64,000 nucleotides of DNA from Pseudozobellia sp. WGM2 (lineage in GTDB: Bacteria; Bacteroidota; Bacteroidia; Flavobacteriales; Flavobacteriaceae): the NCBI RefSeq assembly GCF_017810075.1, contig NZ_JADNYK010000003.1, positions 186,001-250,000 of the forward strand, given 5' to 3'. Under the pieces are notes generated by a model, which worked only from the letters and a program-made list of their open reading frames with translations, did not search any database and had not been told where the DNA came from. Positions 57,033-62,537 of the stretch are shown here, one piece after another. The first letter of the stretch is position 1; every line of letters begins with the position of its first letter. A program made the translations under genes and the position numbers.

Positions 57033-58598
57033 TTACCAAATACTTTCAATTTTACTGATTTTAAAATTATTGAAGTTCAACGCCTCATCTTCTAAATTCT
57101 CTATGGTCAATTTTGTATACACCTCATTCGGAAACAACTGTGCAGTCATCACGTACTGACCTTTATTAATAAATATTTCAATCGAAGACCGGTCTATGAG
57201 CATTCGAACCTCATAAACTTCGTCAGGCAAATTGGGCACGGGCATTATTTGAACCCCCTCTCCAAAATCTTTTTGAAAATCGACTTTACCCGAGTTTGAT
57301 CGATTCAATAAAAACTGTTTGCCCCCTCCTCTCATGCTCAGCAAAAGCTCTTGACCTAATTCATTCGATAACTTTAATTGAAAAGTTTTTGCGTCTGTGT
57401 TGAAAATAACCTCAGCCTGCTGAAGCCCCCTATTTTCGATTGTTCGAGTAGTGTGGGCCCCTATGACCAAATTCTCTGAAGAAGATTTAGTTATGACCTC
57501 GTTAAATTGGCGCACAGGATAATTGGAGAGGTAATATTCTCCGTTTACTTTTTTCAAATCAAACTTACGGGGCACTGTCATTGCGCTACGCCATTTCTCG
57601 GTAGGGGTGGCTTGTGCATAGAGCCAGTTGCTCATCCAACCAATAAAAATCTTCTCATCATTTGGGGCGTTGCTGTAGGTTACCCCAGCATAGTTGTCTG
57701 TTCCCCAATCGACCCAGCGATTTGCTTTCTGCTCGGTAACAAAGGTGCTTCCATCAAAATCGCCAACAAAATATTGTGTACCGCTACCTCCGTTCGGAGC
57801 TCCGGGATTGATACTTATCAGAAGCACCCATTTTTCTTCATCAGAATCAGCTACTTTTAACTTAAAAAGATCAGGACACTCCCAAACTCCGCCATGGGCT
57901 CCCTTTTCTTTTCCGAATTCACCGCTAAGTTGCCATTCCTTTAAATCTGTAGAACTATAAAATTGCGCATGGTCACCGGCTACCAAGGTCATTACCCAGC
58001 GCTGAGTTGGTTCATGCCACATGACCTTGGGATCGCGAAAGTCTCTAACACCCTCATTACCTATCACAGGGTTATTTTCATACTTTGTCCAGCTATCCCC
58101 ATTATCTAAACTATAGGCAATACCTTGGGTCTGAAATGTAGAATCTCCCCGTTTTTCACCCTTCGGGTCATGATACGTATAGATTGCGACCAATGGCGGG
58201 TTCTCATCAGTACCGAATCCCGAAGAATTTGACTCATCAAGTACGGCGCTACCAGAAAAAATGTAACCCAATTCATCAGGGTACAGTGCAACGGGTTTGT
58301 GCTGCCAATGTATCAAATCTTTACTTATCGCATGACCCCAATGCATCGGGCCCCAAACTATACTATCAGGATAGTATTGATAGAACAAATGATAAACCCC
58401 TTCGTTATAAACCATACCATTGGGGTCGTTCATCCACATTTTTTCAGGGGAAAAATGAAATTGCGGCCTGTAATCTTCACTATAGTACGGATTTGATTTT
58501 TCAGTAATTTCAGAAGGCTGCTTTTCTGTTTTATCCCTACAAGAAGGAAAAATTATAACCAGGGAAAAAAGAATAAACCAAACGGAGCAAAATTTCAT
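57033..58598 (-). CDS. Glycoside hydrolase family 32 lipoprotein (fructanase/levanase type)
   Basis: 521 residues. Lipoprotein signal peptide with lipobox FPSC (C20). The five-bladed propeller carries the GH32 catalytic triad: WMNDPNG with nucleophile D58, FRDPKV (transition-state stabiliser) and WECPDL with the acid/base glutamate. A C-terminal beta-sandwich includes VRMLIDRSSIEIFINKG. Hydrolyses beta-2,1 or beta-2,6 fructans or sucrose at the cell surface or periplasm. No susCD pair, fructokinase or regulator is nearby, so it is not part of a visible polysaccharide utilisation locus. Confidence 0.93.
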   Translation of the reverse strand: MKFCSVWFILFSLVIIFPSCRDKTEKQPSEITEKSNPYYSEDYRPQFHFSPEKMWMNDPNGMVYNEGVYHLFYQYYPDSIVWGPMHWGHAISKDLIHWQHKPVALYPDELGYIFSGSAVLDESNSSGFGTDENPPLVAIYTYHDPKGEKRGDSTFQTQGIAYSLDNGDSWTKYENNPVIGNEGVRDFRDPKVMWHEPTQRWVMTLVAGDHAQFYSSTDLKEWQLSGEFGKEKGAHGGVWECPDLFKLKVADSDEEKWVLLISINPGAPNGGSGTQYFVGDFDGSTFVTEQKANRWVDWGTDNYAGVTYSNAPNDEKIFIGWMSNWLYAQATPTEKWRSAMTVPRKFDLKKVNGEYYLSNYPVRQFNEVITKSSSENLVIGAHTTRTIENRGLQQAEVIFNTDAKTFQLKLSNELGQELLLSMRGGGKQFLLNRSNSGKVDFQKDFGEGVQIMPVPNLPDEVYEVRMLIDRSSIEIFINKGQYVMTAQLFPNEVYTKLTIENLEDEALNFNNFKISKIESIW

Positions 58599-58667: not shown

Positions 58668-59171
58668 ATGGTTACTATGAGATTTAAAATTAGCGTTCTT
58701 TTGGTTTTTCTTTTGGCCGATTCCCTTTTAGCGCAGAATAAGATGGACAAGGCCATAAAAAAATGGAACAAAGCAAGTGTACCCTATATTCAAGTAGAGG
58801 AACTTGAAAAATCAGACGATGTCTGGCTTTTAGATACTCGAAAAGTGGAAGAATTCAGTGTCAGCCATATCAAGAATGCCCTTTGGGTCGGTCATAAAGA
58901 ATTTGAAATCGATTCAATAAACGAACATATCAAGGACAAAGACAAGAAGATAGTGGTTTACTGTTCAATCGGCGTAAGGTCGGAAGATATAGGAGAAAAA
59001 TTATTACAAGCCGGCTACTCGAATGTGCAAAATCTTTATGGCGGTATTTTCGAGTGGAAAAACAAAGGATATACCGTATATGATATAGAAGGAAATGAAA
59101 CAGAGAAAATACATGCTTTCAACAAGCATTGGGGCAAACTTTTAAAGAACGGCGATAAGGTGTTTGATTAA
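58668..59171 (+). CDS. Periplasmic rhodanese-domain protein
   Basis: 167 residues; an ATG three codons in (58677) is an equally good start. Signal peptide ending SLLAQ, then a single rhodanese domain with WLLDTRKVEEFSVSHIKNAL and the active-site loop VVYCSIGVRSEDIG containing C99. Exported single-domain sulfurtransferases of this kind often accompany arsenosugar-type cassettes in flavobacteria as I recall, which fits the following genes; the gap to the next is 81 bp. Sulfur donor and acceptor are unknown. Confidence 0.85.
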   Translation: MVTMRFKISVLLVFLLADSLLAQNKMDKAIKKWNKASVPYIQVEELEKSDDVWLLDTRKVEEFSVSHIKNALWVGHKEFEIDSINEHIKDKDKKIVVYCSIGVRSEDIGEKLLQAGYSNVQNLYGGIFEWKNKGYTVYDIEGNETEKIHAFNKHWGKLLKNGDKVFD

Positions 59172-59252
59172 GAACATGCTGTAAGCAATCAGCCCCGATT
59201 TCAACTAATAAATGGAAAAACTTCGGGTTCACTTCGAAAAAATTAAAAAATT

Positions 59253-59930
59253 TTGAGCATAATTCTTCCTATAGATAAATTGCCGGAGCTTTCCGCTATC
59301 AATTATCACAACTTGACTTCTAAAAATTTACTTCTCATTTTTACCAGAAATCCACAGTTGGGCAAATGCAAAACTCGTTTAGCCGCTACCGTGGGCAATC
59401 AAACTGCGCTAGATATCTATAAATTTTTACTGAACCACACAATAAACATTACTAAAAACCTGAATGTAGCCAAACAGGTTTGGTATTCTAAAGAAGTGTG
59501 GGAAGATGATATCTGGGACGGTAAAATATATGATAAAAAATTACAGAAAGGCGATGATTTAGGCACTCGAATGGGTAATGCTTTTCAAGAAGGTTTCGAG
59601 CAAGGTTTTGAACGCATTATTATTATTGGTAGCGACATGTTCGACCTCAATCAAAAAGATTTGGAAAAGGCTTTTAAAAAACTTCATGACCATAATTATG
59701 TCGTGGGCCCTGCTGATGACGGCGGATACTACCTTCTAGGAATGACCAACTATAAAAATGAACTTTTCATAGGAAAAAATTGGGGCCAAGACACGGTTTT
59801 GCAAGACACTTTGACAAACCTCAAAAATGAAAAATGTCATATATTGGATACCAGAAACGATGTTGACCTCTATGAGGATATTAAAGACATAGATGCCTTT
59901 CAACCTTTTTTTAAAAATATTGAAGAATGA
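59253..59930 (+). CDS. TIGR04282-type nucleotidyl/glycosyltransferase (arsenosugar cassette)
   Basis: 225 residues from a TTG at 59253; no ATG precedes the conserved core KNLLLIFTRNPQLGKCKTRLA, so a later TTG (59280) is also possible. DUF2064/GT-A fold with IIIIGSDMFDL, PADDGGYYLLGM and NDVDLYEDI. Family TIGR04282 is named for its recurrent place in arsenosugar biosynthesis cassettes. A 14-codon open frame (59212-59256) overlaps the TTG, giving possible coupling. The stop overlaps the purine nucleoside phosphorylase ATG (ATGA). Confidence 0.82.
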   Translation: MSIILPIDKLPELSAINYHNLTSKNLLLIFTRNPQLGKCKTRLAATVGNQTALDIYKFLLNHTINITKNLNVAKQVWYSKEVWEDDIWDGKIYDKKLQKGDDLGTRMGNAFQEGFEQGFERIIIIGSDMFDLNQKDLEKAFKKLHDHNYVVGPADDGGYYLLGMTNYKNELFIGKNWGQDTVLQDTLTNLKNEKCHILDTRNDVDLYEDIKDIDAFQPFFKNIEE

Positions 59931-60742
59931 CGCAAAAGCAACTGAAAGATTCGACTGCTTATCTACAAAGTAAAGGGTTCGACAAGCCAGAAATCGGTAT
60001 TGTTCTGGGTACCGGCCTCGGCAAATTGGCCGACCAAATCGAAAACCCCATAATCGCCCATTACAATCACATTCCTTTTTTTCCTTTAGCTACTGTAGAG
60101 TTTCATTCGGGCAAACTTATTTATGGTACACTCGAAGGTAAGAAGGTCGTAGTTATGCAGGGGCGTTTTCATTTGTACGAAGGATATGATTTCATTGATA
60201 TTACCTACCCAATTAGGGTGATGCATCAACTAGGTATTAAAACCCTGTTCATTTCGAATGCCGCTGGTGCTATCAATCTTGATTTCAACAAGGGTGACCT
60301 TATGCTCATTGAAGATCATATTAATCTTCAAGGCGGCTCGCCATTGGCGTTTAAAGGGGTTAGTAAATATGGAGAACGTTTTACCGACATGGCGGAACCC
60401 TATGACCCATCGATGAGAAAAAAACTTCTCGAAATTGCAAAGAACGAGAATATCGTTTTAAGACAAGGTGTCTACGCATCGGTAGTAGGACCTCAATTGG
60501 AAACTAAGGCCGAATACCGAATGCTTAAAATTATTGGTGCAGATGCGGTAGGCATGAGCACGGTGCCCGAAGTTATCGTTGCCAACCATTTGAATCTGCC
60601 CATAGTTGCCGTTTCAGTACTTACAGATGAATGTGACCCCGATAGTCTAGAGCCTTTAGATGTTCAAGAAATAATTGATACAGCCGCCAAGGCAGAACCT
60701 AAAATGGTAAAATTGTTCAAAGAACTGATCAAACAAATATAA
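59927..60742 (+). CDS. Purine nucleoside phosphorylase
   Basis: 271 residues, trimeric (human-like) PNP family. VLGTGLGKLADQIE phosphate site, VEFHSGKLIYG, MQGRFHLYEGYD, ISNAAGAINLDF and DAVGMSTVPEVIVANH are all present. Splits purine nucleosides with phosphate into base and ribose-1-phosphate. In arsenosugar cassettes a PNP removes adenine from the 5'-arseno-5'-deoxyadenosine product before glycosyl transfer; the flanking TIGR04282/TIGR04283-type genes support that role, but ordinary nucleoside salvage is an alternative. Confidence 0.95.
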   Translation: MTQKQLKDSTAYLQSKGFDKPEIGIVLGTGLGKLADQIENPIIAHYNHIPFFPLATVEFHSGKLIYGTLEGKKVVVMQGRFHLYEGYDFIDITYPIRVMHQLGIKTLFISNAAGAINLDFNKGDLMLIEDHINLQGGSPLAFKGVSKYGERFTDMAEPYDPSMRKKLLEIAKNENIVLRQGVYASVVGPQLETKAEYRMLKIIGADAVGMSTVPEVIVANHLNLPIVAVSVLTDECDPDSLEPLDVQEIIDTAAKAEPKMVKLFKELIKQI

Positions 60743-60779
60743 ACTGCTAGGGCCCACCATTTGTTATACTGTTCGACTA

Positions 60780-61481
60780 ATGAAAAAGACGCCAACTATC
60801 AGTATAATCATTCCGGTTCTTAATGAAGAAAATTATATCAAGAAGTTGCTTGACTATTTAAAACCCTATCAAGCTTCATATTTGCTAAAAGAAATAATAG
60901 TAATCGATGGGGGCAGTTCAGACCATACCCTAAAAATTATATCGGAGTATAAAGTAAAAGTTTTTCATTCAGAAAAGGGTCGCGCAAAACAAATGAATCT
61001 TGGAGCAAAACATGCCACTGGGGATATTTTATATTTTCTTCACGTGGATACCAAGCCCCCAGAGAATTTTCACTTTGATATTCTTCAAGCAGTGAAACAT
61101 GATTTTAAGGCTGGTTGCTTTAGAATGCGATTCAATAGTCGAAACTTATTTCTCGCTTTCTTCGCGTATTTCTCCCGATTCAATCATATTATTTGCAGAG
61201 GGGGCGATCAATCTCTCTTTGTTACTCGACATCTTTTCGAAAAGGCCGGAAGGTTCAATGAAGAGTACATTATTTACGAGGATACCGAATTTATCGGCCG
61301 GTTATACCAACTGTGTAATTTTAAGGTAATACCCGACTACATAACTACCTCAGCCAGAAAATACGATCAAGTGGGTACAGCCAAGTTACAATACTATTTC
61401 GGGGTTATTCATTTCAAACGGCTATTTGGGGCGACGCCGGAAAACTTATATCGATACTACAAAAGAAAAATAACCGTCTGA
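60780..61481 (+). CDS. TIGR04283-type GT2 glycosyltransferase (arsenosugar cassette)
   Basis: 233 residues. GT-A fold: SIIIPVLNEENYIKKLL, EIIVIDGGSSDHTLK, KGRAKQMNLGAKHATGDILYFLHVDT (donor-binding D in LHVDT) and FNEEYIIYEDTEFIGRL. The RAxQMNxGAxxAxGDxLxFLHxDT pattern is that of family TIGR04283. It follows the PNP by 37 bp and converges with the amidase gene at 3 nt. No acceptor can be deduced. Confidence 0.85.
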   Translation: MKKTPTISIIIPVLNEENYIKKLLDYLKPYQASYLLKEIIVIDGGSSDHTLKIISEYKVKVFHSEKGRAKQMNLGAKHATGDILYFLHVDTKPPENFHFDILQAVKHDFKAGCFRMRFNSRNLFLAFFAYFSRFNHIICRGGDQSLFVTRHLFEKAGRFNEEYIIYEDTEFIGRLYQLCNFKVIPDYITTSARKYDQVGTAKLQYYFGVIHFKRLFGATPENLYRYYKRKITV

Positions 61482-61484
61482 ATA

Positions 61485-62537
61485 CTATTTTTCATAATCT
61501 AAAATAACCCCTTCCGAAATCCATTTGGCTAATGCCTGCCGATTATCGGGGTCTAAGATTCGACGCTGATCTTTCTTACTTCGAATATTACCTATTTCTA
61601 TAAAGGTCATTGCCGGATGTGTTTTTTTGACCAAGTACAAAGATGAACGGTCTTCAAAAGTACCCGAATAAATCCGATTGGGTTGAAATTTTTTATACTT
61701 CTCTTGAAACGTTTTATGTATACTTTCCGCTAACTTTTTACCGTTCTTACTTTTTTCATGGTGATAGAAGAAAACATCTATATTCTGCCCCCTACTTCTA
61801 CTATCAACGTGGGTAACGATTAAACGTTGATACTTGCCACGATTTTCCCTATAAAGTTCATTCACAATTTCGACCCGTTGCTTCAAGCGTGCCACTTGAT
61901 TCAAGGGTATAGTCTTATTTGGGTAGGCTACTTCGTCATGATCAATTTTTAATACACGCTCGTCACGAATGCCATCATTTTCATCTCTAATGATAATGTA
62001 TACAAAAGCCCCATGCGACATCAGTTCTTTTGCCAATCTTAAGGTAATATCATATGCATATTCATCTTCAGCGATCATTTGATTGCCATACTTCGCCATA
62101 GCACCGGGGTCAGGGCCACCATGCCCTGAGACCAAGTAGTAAACATTACCCTTCAACCGCTCACTCTTTTCTAATACAGTCGCATGTTTTTTACCAAAAA
62201 TCGCAAAATCTTCACCCTCGATTTTTTTAATCTTAGTACTATTCTTTTGAATAGTCTCTACCACTTCGACCGTATCGAGTTCAACAGGGGGAATCAGATA
62301 TTTACGACCTGCATACAAATGAATGCTGTCACGAAGGTTATCAACATTCATGGCTATAAAATCATCGTAGTGATCATAAGGATCGATACCTTGTTTTCTC
62401 AAAAGTGAAAGTATGCCGTCACCTTTTTTGGCCACTACTACCTTTAATGAATCTTGACCATAAATAGTATTCTCAGCACCGAAAAGAAGTGCTAAAACAA
62501 AAAATGTTTTGAAATATCTAAAAAAGGTGTGATTCAT
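61485..62537 (-). CDS. N-acetylmuramoyl-L-alanine amidase with LysM
   Basis: 350 residues. N-terminal signal peptide (ending IYGQ), a LysM-like segment (about 34-86, VVAKKGDGILSLLRKQG ... GRKYLIPP), then an Amidase_3 domain: zinc ligands H in VSGHGGPDPG, E in AEDEYAYDI and H in VTHVDSRSR, with the catalytic glutamate in IEIGNIRSK. Cleaves the bond between muramic acid and the peptide stem, usually for daughter-cell separation. Monocistronic. Confidence 0.92.
   Translation of the reverse strand: MNHTFFRYFKTFFVLALLFGAENTIYGQDSLKVVVAKKGDGILSLLRKQGIDPYDHYDDFIAMNVDNLRDSIHLYAGRKYLIPPVELDTVEVVETIQKNSTKIKKIEGEDFAIFGKKHATVLEKSERLKGNVYYLVSGHGGPDPGAMAKYGNQMIAEDEYAYDITLRLAKELMSHGAFVYIIIRDENDGIRDERVLKIDHDEVAYPNKTIPLNQVARLKQRVEIVNELYRENRGKYQRLIVTHVDSRSRGQNIDVFFYHHEKSKNGKKLAESIHKTFQEKYKKFQPNRIYSGTFEDRSSLYLVKKTHPAMTFIEIGNIRSKKDQRRILDPDNRQALAKWISEGVILDYEK

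Follow-up and report, generated by a model that had tools for sequence, protein, structure and literature searches.

The arsenosugar cassette, the closest described system to the locus treated here, comprises the methyltransferase ArsM (NF038099), the radical SAM enzyme ArsS (TIGR04167) and the families TIGR04169, TIGR04282 and TIGR04283, the last two of which share the NCBIfam name ‘arsenosugar biosynthesis glycosyltransferase’. An excerpt of a soil survey assigns TIGR04282 to the tolerance of heat and arsenic stress (PMC11237643). The window that we analyzed, the whole 64,000-nucleotide stretch from Pseudozobellia sp. WGM2 (genome G000, locus L095), holds a set of four genes encoding a rhodanese, a TIGR04282 protein, a purine nucleoside phosphorylase (PNP) and a TIGR04283 protein. 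Full cassettes of the Flavobacteriaceae have these four families in the same relative order, whereas the genome of the window lacks both enzymes that define the pathway and the set itself lacks TIGR04169 and DUF547 genes (a comparison at the level of the set, as TIGR04169 was not searched genome-wide). Because ArsS and the arsenosugar ArsM are missing, the set falls outside the arsenosugar pathway, and it may well work like the tail of that pathway. Our best explanation, for which we see about as much chance of being right as wrong, is that the set is the late (‘tail’) arsenosugar module, which has outlasted ArsM and ArsS and remains functional, likely toward a non-arsenical glycoside.

Two other described systems are similar in part. 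The salvage of 5′-deoxyadenosine and methylthioadenosine, as outlined in the available portions of two sources (PMC8102628, PMC6079011), would share with the window route its first step, phosphorolysis to a 5-modified ribose-1-phosphate. The window set then differs in having a nucleotidyltransferase and a glycosyltransferase rather than an isomerase and an aldolase; MtnA was found in none of 20 genomes (E <= 0.001), a search in which 9 of 14 control genomes were positive and which did not extend to the drd kinase and aldolase. The CofC/FbiD guanylyltransferases of the F420 pathway share the fold of TIGR04282, which nevertheless falls under the TIGR03552 cut-off (32.5 versus 105 bits). A literature search, with most subscription journals outside its reach, found no paper on the four-gene set without ArsS.

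All four genes hold up, as do their names. Their identities come from a scan with NCBIfam hidden Markov models at curated cut-offs, with which the Pfam results agree, and the TIGR04282 and TIGR04283 assignments made in a first-pass annotation of the window are upheld along with those of the rhodanese and PNP. All lie on the + strand. The single-domain rhodanese (58668-59171; NF045521 rhoda_near_glyco, 203.9 bits against a cut-off of 145) has the active-site loop CSIGVR and an N-terminus that resembles a signal peptide, as judged by eye without a prediction tool. After 81 base pairs (bp) it is followed by the TIGR04282 protein (59253-59930; 214.3 bits, cut-off 134), which has a TTG start, a conserved core from 59316 and a length of 225 amino acids, equal to that of its homologues in G198 and in G421, a congener assembled as one contig. 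PNP (59927-60742; PRK08202, 345.9 bits, cut-off 218; TIGR01700, 302 bits, cut-off 293.35) overlaps the TIGR04282 gene by 4 bp and is separated by 37 bp (60743-60779) from the gene for the TIGR04283 protein, a GT2-family glycosyltransferase with a GT-A-type fold (60780-61481; 232.7 bits, cut-off 182). The overlap and the short gap make for an operon-like layout. A promoter scan, with 15 sigma-70-like sites against 9.4 expected, was uninformative. In relatives the 37-bp gap is the site of ArsM and/or a DUF547 gene, neither of which is present here; a reading of it by eye for an ArsM remnant found nothing recognizable.

The arsenic-inserting core is missing from more than this locus. A search of the whole genome gave no ArsS over the TIGR04167 cut-off (best 29.1 bits), nor any at stricter limits, and for the arsenosugar ArsM a best match of 23.6 bits against a cut-off of 400. 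Neither enzyme is in the window, as had been noted from the start, or in the single-contig congener G421; the single-contig genome G430 also lacks both, and none of the 16 ArsS-less genomes tested has an arsenosugar ArsM that passes the cut-off. The suggestion that the core genes lie elsewhere in the genome is therefore ruled out by the genome-wide searches of the 4.70-Mb assembly and by G421, although it holds for many relatives in which ArsS is distant.

Indeed, the relatives form a graded loss, from an intact cassette through one with ArsS relocated and one with ArsM also out of the set to the state of the window, with both gone. The full order is seen in G461 (L140), where ArsS, ArsM, TIGR04169 and DUF547 were identified with NCBIfam and Pfam (in the other loci, with custom-built profiles), and runs TIGR04169 (peroxidase-like), ArsS, rhodanese, TIGR04282, PNP, ArsM, DUF547, TIGR04283. 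Together with G239, G366, G460, G327 and G202 (L141, L142, L163-L165) this makes six full-cassette loci, L142 having one additional gene ahead of DUF547. The window set keeps their relative order, which bears out the likeness to arsenosugar accessory genes first drawn from the tight gene order; that ArsM normally stands between PNP and TIGR04283 had been missed. Outside the family, two class-level loci (L013, L014) hold PNP, ArsM, TIGR04282, TIGR04283 and ArsS in two other orders, and PNP therefore accompanies the cassette beyond a single inherited order. ArsS is distant and ArsM still sits between PNP and TIGR04283 in L145, L146, L149-L151, L156 and L159-L161, while ArsM is also absent from the set in L143, L147, L152, L154, L157, L158 and L162. 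In G395, ArsM adjoins the distant ArsS (L144). Five genomes with ArsM out of the set (G409, G272, G347, G370, G247) have no NF038099 match over cut-off in a search of 15 ArsS-bearing genomes (G411 not among them), and part-pathways therefore occur. In the three ArsS loci examined from that ArsM-less group (L148, L153, L155), a TIGR04169-like gene is the sole cassette companion of ArsS. Neither enzyme is found in the window locus, L126-L130, L132-L135 or L138, the last with TIGR04283 on a separate contig; the deviating ArsS-less loci are those of G457 (L136) and G353 (L131).

Despite the missing core, the four genes are, by their substitution patterns, under purifying selection, with active sites kept. 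Compared with G421, the ratio of nonsynonymous to synonymous change (dN/dS) is 0.23 for the rhodanese, 0.24 for TIGR04282, 0.019 for PNP and 0.11 for TIGR04283, with an excess of synonymous change at p = 5e-6, 0.002, 8e-36 and 5e-10, respectively. Relative rates were compared in nine partly non-independent triplets, in which the lineage-specific changes in rhodanese, TIGR04282 and TIGR04283 together, ArsS-less to ArsS-bearing, were 48:43, 47:58, 46:53, 47:65, 61:76, 75:66, 70:62, 63:78 and 36:76; there is no general acceleration in ArsS-less loci. Of 76 aligned rhodaneses, 75 have the loop cysteine, and the remaining one (L214) is gapped at that position. The window TIGR04282 protein keeps the nucleotidyltransferase signature GxxKTRL, D107 and DGGYYLLG, and D43, H88-x-D90 and E167 are invariant in TIGR04283. 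An alignment column counted as shifted if it was conserved in 85% or more of the ArsS-bearing sets and in no more than 60% of the ArsS-less ones; rhodanese, TIGR04282 and PNP have none, and altered specificity as an explanation was set aside with only two weak columns, both in TIGR04283.

The distribution of the set across genomes ties it to ArsS and at the same time marks the window as an exception, yet a recurrent one. Gene positions in these surveys cover part of the matches. At the class level (198 genomes), TIGR04283 is over cut-off in 13 genomes, and ArsS is found in 31; ArsS accompanies TIGR04283 in 12 of those 13, and the exception is the window’s own genome (genome sets compared by eye). 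At the family level (299 genomes), TIGR04283 occurs in 202, ArsS in 214 and the rhodanese in 183 (181 over cut-off), and a scripted comparison finds ArsS in 185 of the 202 genomes with TIGR04283 versus 29 of the 97 without it (Fisher p = 6e-28, kinship ignored). So strong a link means that the family’s arsenosugar label is well founded. The phylogenetic profile proposed at first pass thus confirms the association and also reveals that the set recurs without ArsS, as a minority state of 17 in 202, or 16 after removal of G486, a contig-edge case with ArsS cut by the contig end and ArsM over cut-off.

In an IQ-TREE phylogeny of 34 concatenated sets, the window’s genus groups with G208 (support 100/97), which has ArsM inside the set and ArsS elsewhere. 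The fewest changes in ArsS presence number 8 on this tree, at least 4 of them forced by starred branches, and 9 on a FastTree phylogeny of 83 sets, 7 of them forced by well-supported branches; such counts do not separate losses from gains, and the FastTree phylogeny comes with long-branch and odd-composition warnings for a few rows. Left out of the trees were G353 (set without PNP), G483 (set over two contigs), G234 (only the 3.4-kb stretch L103), G377 (rhodanese not found, no locus) and G436 (no locus). The FastTree phylogeny adds named carriers in which ArsS gave no match, namely Zobellia russellii, Cellulophaga fucicola, C. baltica and Nonlabens xylanidelens, the last with a set that has no rhodanese, as well as metagenome-assembled genomes of Christiangramia and Eudoraea. 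ArsS was searched in 43 genomes from 44 of the 80 named loci, nearly all picked for the apparent lack of ArsS from the locus; 14 of the 43 genomes have none, which given this selection is not a rate, and the search covered ArsS, not ArsM, in genomes whose completeness is not given. A swap of arsenic methylation for arsenite efflux was also considered, and Acr3 shows no link, being matched in 11 of 15 ArsS-less genomes tested (including the window’s; the match in G483 is sub-cut-off) versus 21 of 28 others.

The chemistry that the set could perform is suggested by predicted structures and by residues in PNP. The predicted structure of the TIGR04282 protein (pLDDT 95.6) has as its best PDB matches 3cgx, Rv2983/FbiD and 3-phosphoglycerate guanylyltransferase, and by this predicted fold it is a CofC/FbiD-like nucleotidyltransferase and not a glycosyltransferase as named. 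The NCBIfam label and the combination of fold and motifs thus disagree for this family. The TIGR04283 protein (pLDDT 95.8) matches GT2-type glycosyltransferases. With PNP, the two folds form a coherent chain from nucleoside through sugar-1-phosphate and nucleotide sugar to glycoside. Where the PNP of C. perfringens carries Asn and His, the window PNP carries Asp and Val, and cassette PNPs have Asp plus Val or Ile at these two alignment columns in 35 of 35 cases. Methylthioadenosine phosphorylase (MTAP) has Asp and Val at the same two places. The columns would correspond to Asn243 and His257 of human PNP, which, according to part of one study, hold the purine and can bond the 5′-OH, respectively, the latter bond being not strongly persistent (PMC4308819). 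The residues would therefore fit an enzyme for 5′-modified adenine nucleosides. By family model, the window PNP passes the inosine/guanosine PNP cut-off and scores 98.8 bits against the MTAP cut-off of 274.85. Only two PF01048 proteins were found in the genome at E <= 1e-6, the window PNP, which is the only one of its type found there, and a protein of 293 amino acids taken from its size to be a uridine phosphorylase. Since MtnA is absent and PF01048 proteins number only two, the searches gave no evidence of salvage of the usual MtnA or nucleosidase type, and TIGR04282 is left as the only exit found for 5-deoxy- or 5-methylthio-ribose-1-phosphate, the drd kinase and aldolase lying outside the search.

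We propose that PNP would phosphorolyse a 5′-modified adenine nucleoside to a 5-modified ribose-1-phosphate, that TIGR04282 would activate this product to a nucleotide sugar, and that TIGR04283 would move the 5-modified furanose onto glycerol, a lipid or another acceptor, with the rhodanese, probably secreted, playing some role in sulfur chemistry. In ArsS-bearing species the nucleoside would be 5′-dimethylarsinoyl-adenosine and the product an arsenosugar. In the lineage of the window, where the tail genes are intact and selected though both arsenic-inserting enzymes are missing, the genes would most likely yield an arsenic-free product; a non-arsenical substrate is likely, most likely 5′-deoxyadenosine or methylthioadenosine. 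A broader version of this idea, which we put forward tentatively and think more probably wrong than right, is that TIGR04282-PNP-TIGR04283 is an arsenic-independent route carrying 5′-deoxyadenosine or methylthioadenosine, both waste products of SAM chemistry, by way of nucleotide-activated 5-deoxy- or 5-methylthio-ribofuranose, to lipid or glycerol in bacteria without MtnA, with arsenosugar synthesis as one use added by ArsM and ArsS.

Several observations weigh against a working, non-arsenical tail. The substrates and products of TIGR04282 and TIGR04283 are proposals only, and MtnA is absent from ArsS-bearing relatives too. The cassette-free genomes G218 and G237 share both PNP residues, and G222 has the Asp and keeps the His; the residues are therefore a trait of this PNP type and not of the cassette, and cassette-specific residues are ruled out. 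PNP could be retained simply as the sole purine nucleoside phosphorylase. Eleven flanking genes have dN/dS values of 0.009-0.221, and those of rhodanese and TIGR04282 fall at or slightly above the upper end. In the window’s own lineage the set is fast relative to its flanks when compared with G208 (48:43 versus 82:138, p = 0.016; other outgroup, p = 0.90), as it is in G198 (46:53 versus 81:254, p printed as 0.000; other outgroup, p = 0.26), shifts that could reflect mildly relaxed constraint. Taken by itself, the rhodanese evolves faster in three of the ArsS-less loci (27:13, 33:9, 24:10) and slower in others. Of the two earlier suggestions, a different glycosylated product made from a 5′-modified nucleoside is the one left standing: conservation of the genes persists in the absence of the core and two PNP residues fit, while those residues are not special to the cassette and the product is itself a proposal.

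Other explanations start from the same data. The chemistry might be unchanged and the arsenic come from outside, with methylated arsenic nucleosides or arsenosugar precursors from algae or neighbors taken up and then finished or remodelled. Algal arsenosugars come already glycosylated and would need neither PNP nor TIGR04282, and no importer is among the annotated flanking genes (other neighbors were not annotated); we thus regard this source as unlikely, even though the lack of shifted columns in rhodanese, TIGR04282 and PNP speaks for it, part-pathways like those of the five ArsM-less genomes occur, and the ArsS-less carriers include Zobellia and Cellulophaga. Cellulophaga lives on algae, as does Zobellia according to the part of a study available (PMC9296495). 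The set could alternatively be a bystander in which only PNP matters, the other three genes being undecayed leftovers. PNP is the sole enzyme of its type found in the genome and by far the most constrained of the four, cassette-free G218, G222 and G237 still have it, and incomplete ArsS-less sets exist: G483 has TIGR04283 on another contig, G353 has PNP outside the set, L226 lacks the rhodanese and the L197 stretch has TIGR04283 only. On the other hand, all four frames are found in L095, L126-L130, L132-L136, L196, L200, L204, L205 and L229, and rhodanese, TIGR04282 and TIGR04283 each show significant purifying selection and no general acceleration, in several lineages, which leaves the leftover account with a small share of the probability.

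Core replacement is improbable in our view: an unrecognized methyltransferase and radical SAM enzyme would supply an arsenical or other 5′-modified nucleoside to the tail. In its favor is G457 (C80, 1248-11531; L136), a genome that lacks TIGR04167, where the tail set is preceded by an ArsM-like methyltransferase (NF008823, 181 bits, cut-off 263) together with a radical SAM protein of no assigned class, while the congener G239 has the full cassette; these two genes are a possible alternative core for the same tail. In G301, an ArsM-like protein (89.8 bits) lies about 25 kb from the set. However, no such genes were recognized beside the set in the window’s lineage (no survey of radical SAM genes in G000 was made), ArsM model matches in G000 reach at most 23.6 bits, and inspection by eye turned up no neighbor peculiar to ArsS-less loci. 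Loss of the core to an assembly gap or misassembly gains something from the 69 contigs of the window’s own assembly and from the precedent of G486, which had appeared ArsS-less; because single-contig G421 is also without the core, as is G430, and the assembly is 99.97% complete, such an artefact is very unlikely.

The set occupies a conserved genomic place. On its left is a GH32 glycosidase (57033-58598, − strand; PF00251, PF08244), divergent from the set, and on its right an N-acetylmuramoyl-L-alanine amidase (61485-62537, − strand; PF01520), convergent with it; the initial description of both flanks as convergent was right for the amidase and wrong for the glycosidase. Among 28 split or core-less loci (L095, L126-L130, L132-L136, L138 and 16 with distant ArsS), the fetched stretch holds both genes in 19 and the amidase in 25, so that the two serve as markers of the set’s place in many relatives, and G421 shares both the four genes and their surroundings. 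The arrangement is not due to chance, since relatives repeat the gene order, 19 of the 28 loci have both flanking genes, and NCBI itself named the rhodanese family rhoda_near_glyco.

Other family members and gene associations were seen along the way. The genome has a second, divergent TIGR04283 protein (C44:240693-241352; L093:9642-10355) at 184 bits, barely above cut-off, which adjoins glyoxalase-like and metallo-hydrolase genes and a divergent DUF547 gene; comparable divergent TIGR04283/DUF547 pairs occur in L015 and L016. It also has a TIGR04282-like protein under cut-off (C55:149500-150198; L094, 96.8 bits), and one of the same length lies a single small open reading frame away from ArsS in G395 (L144:9322-10020). 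Upstream in L136 are also an ABC importer (PRK11622, 378 bits) and two small proteins without a family match, which we take to be ThuA-like. In Aquimarina and relatives (L208, L211, L219, L220, L223, L234, L236), two to four DUF547 genes lie upstream of TIGR04283.

If the set is indeed selected without ArsM and ArsS, the arsenosugar label goes beyond what the genes support, and the final reactions of arsenosugar synthesis could then be examined in organisms that make no arsenic nucleoside, with the ArsS-less species as a natural gene-removal series.

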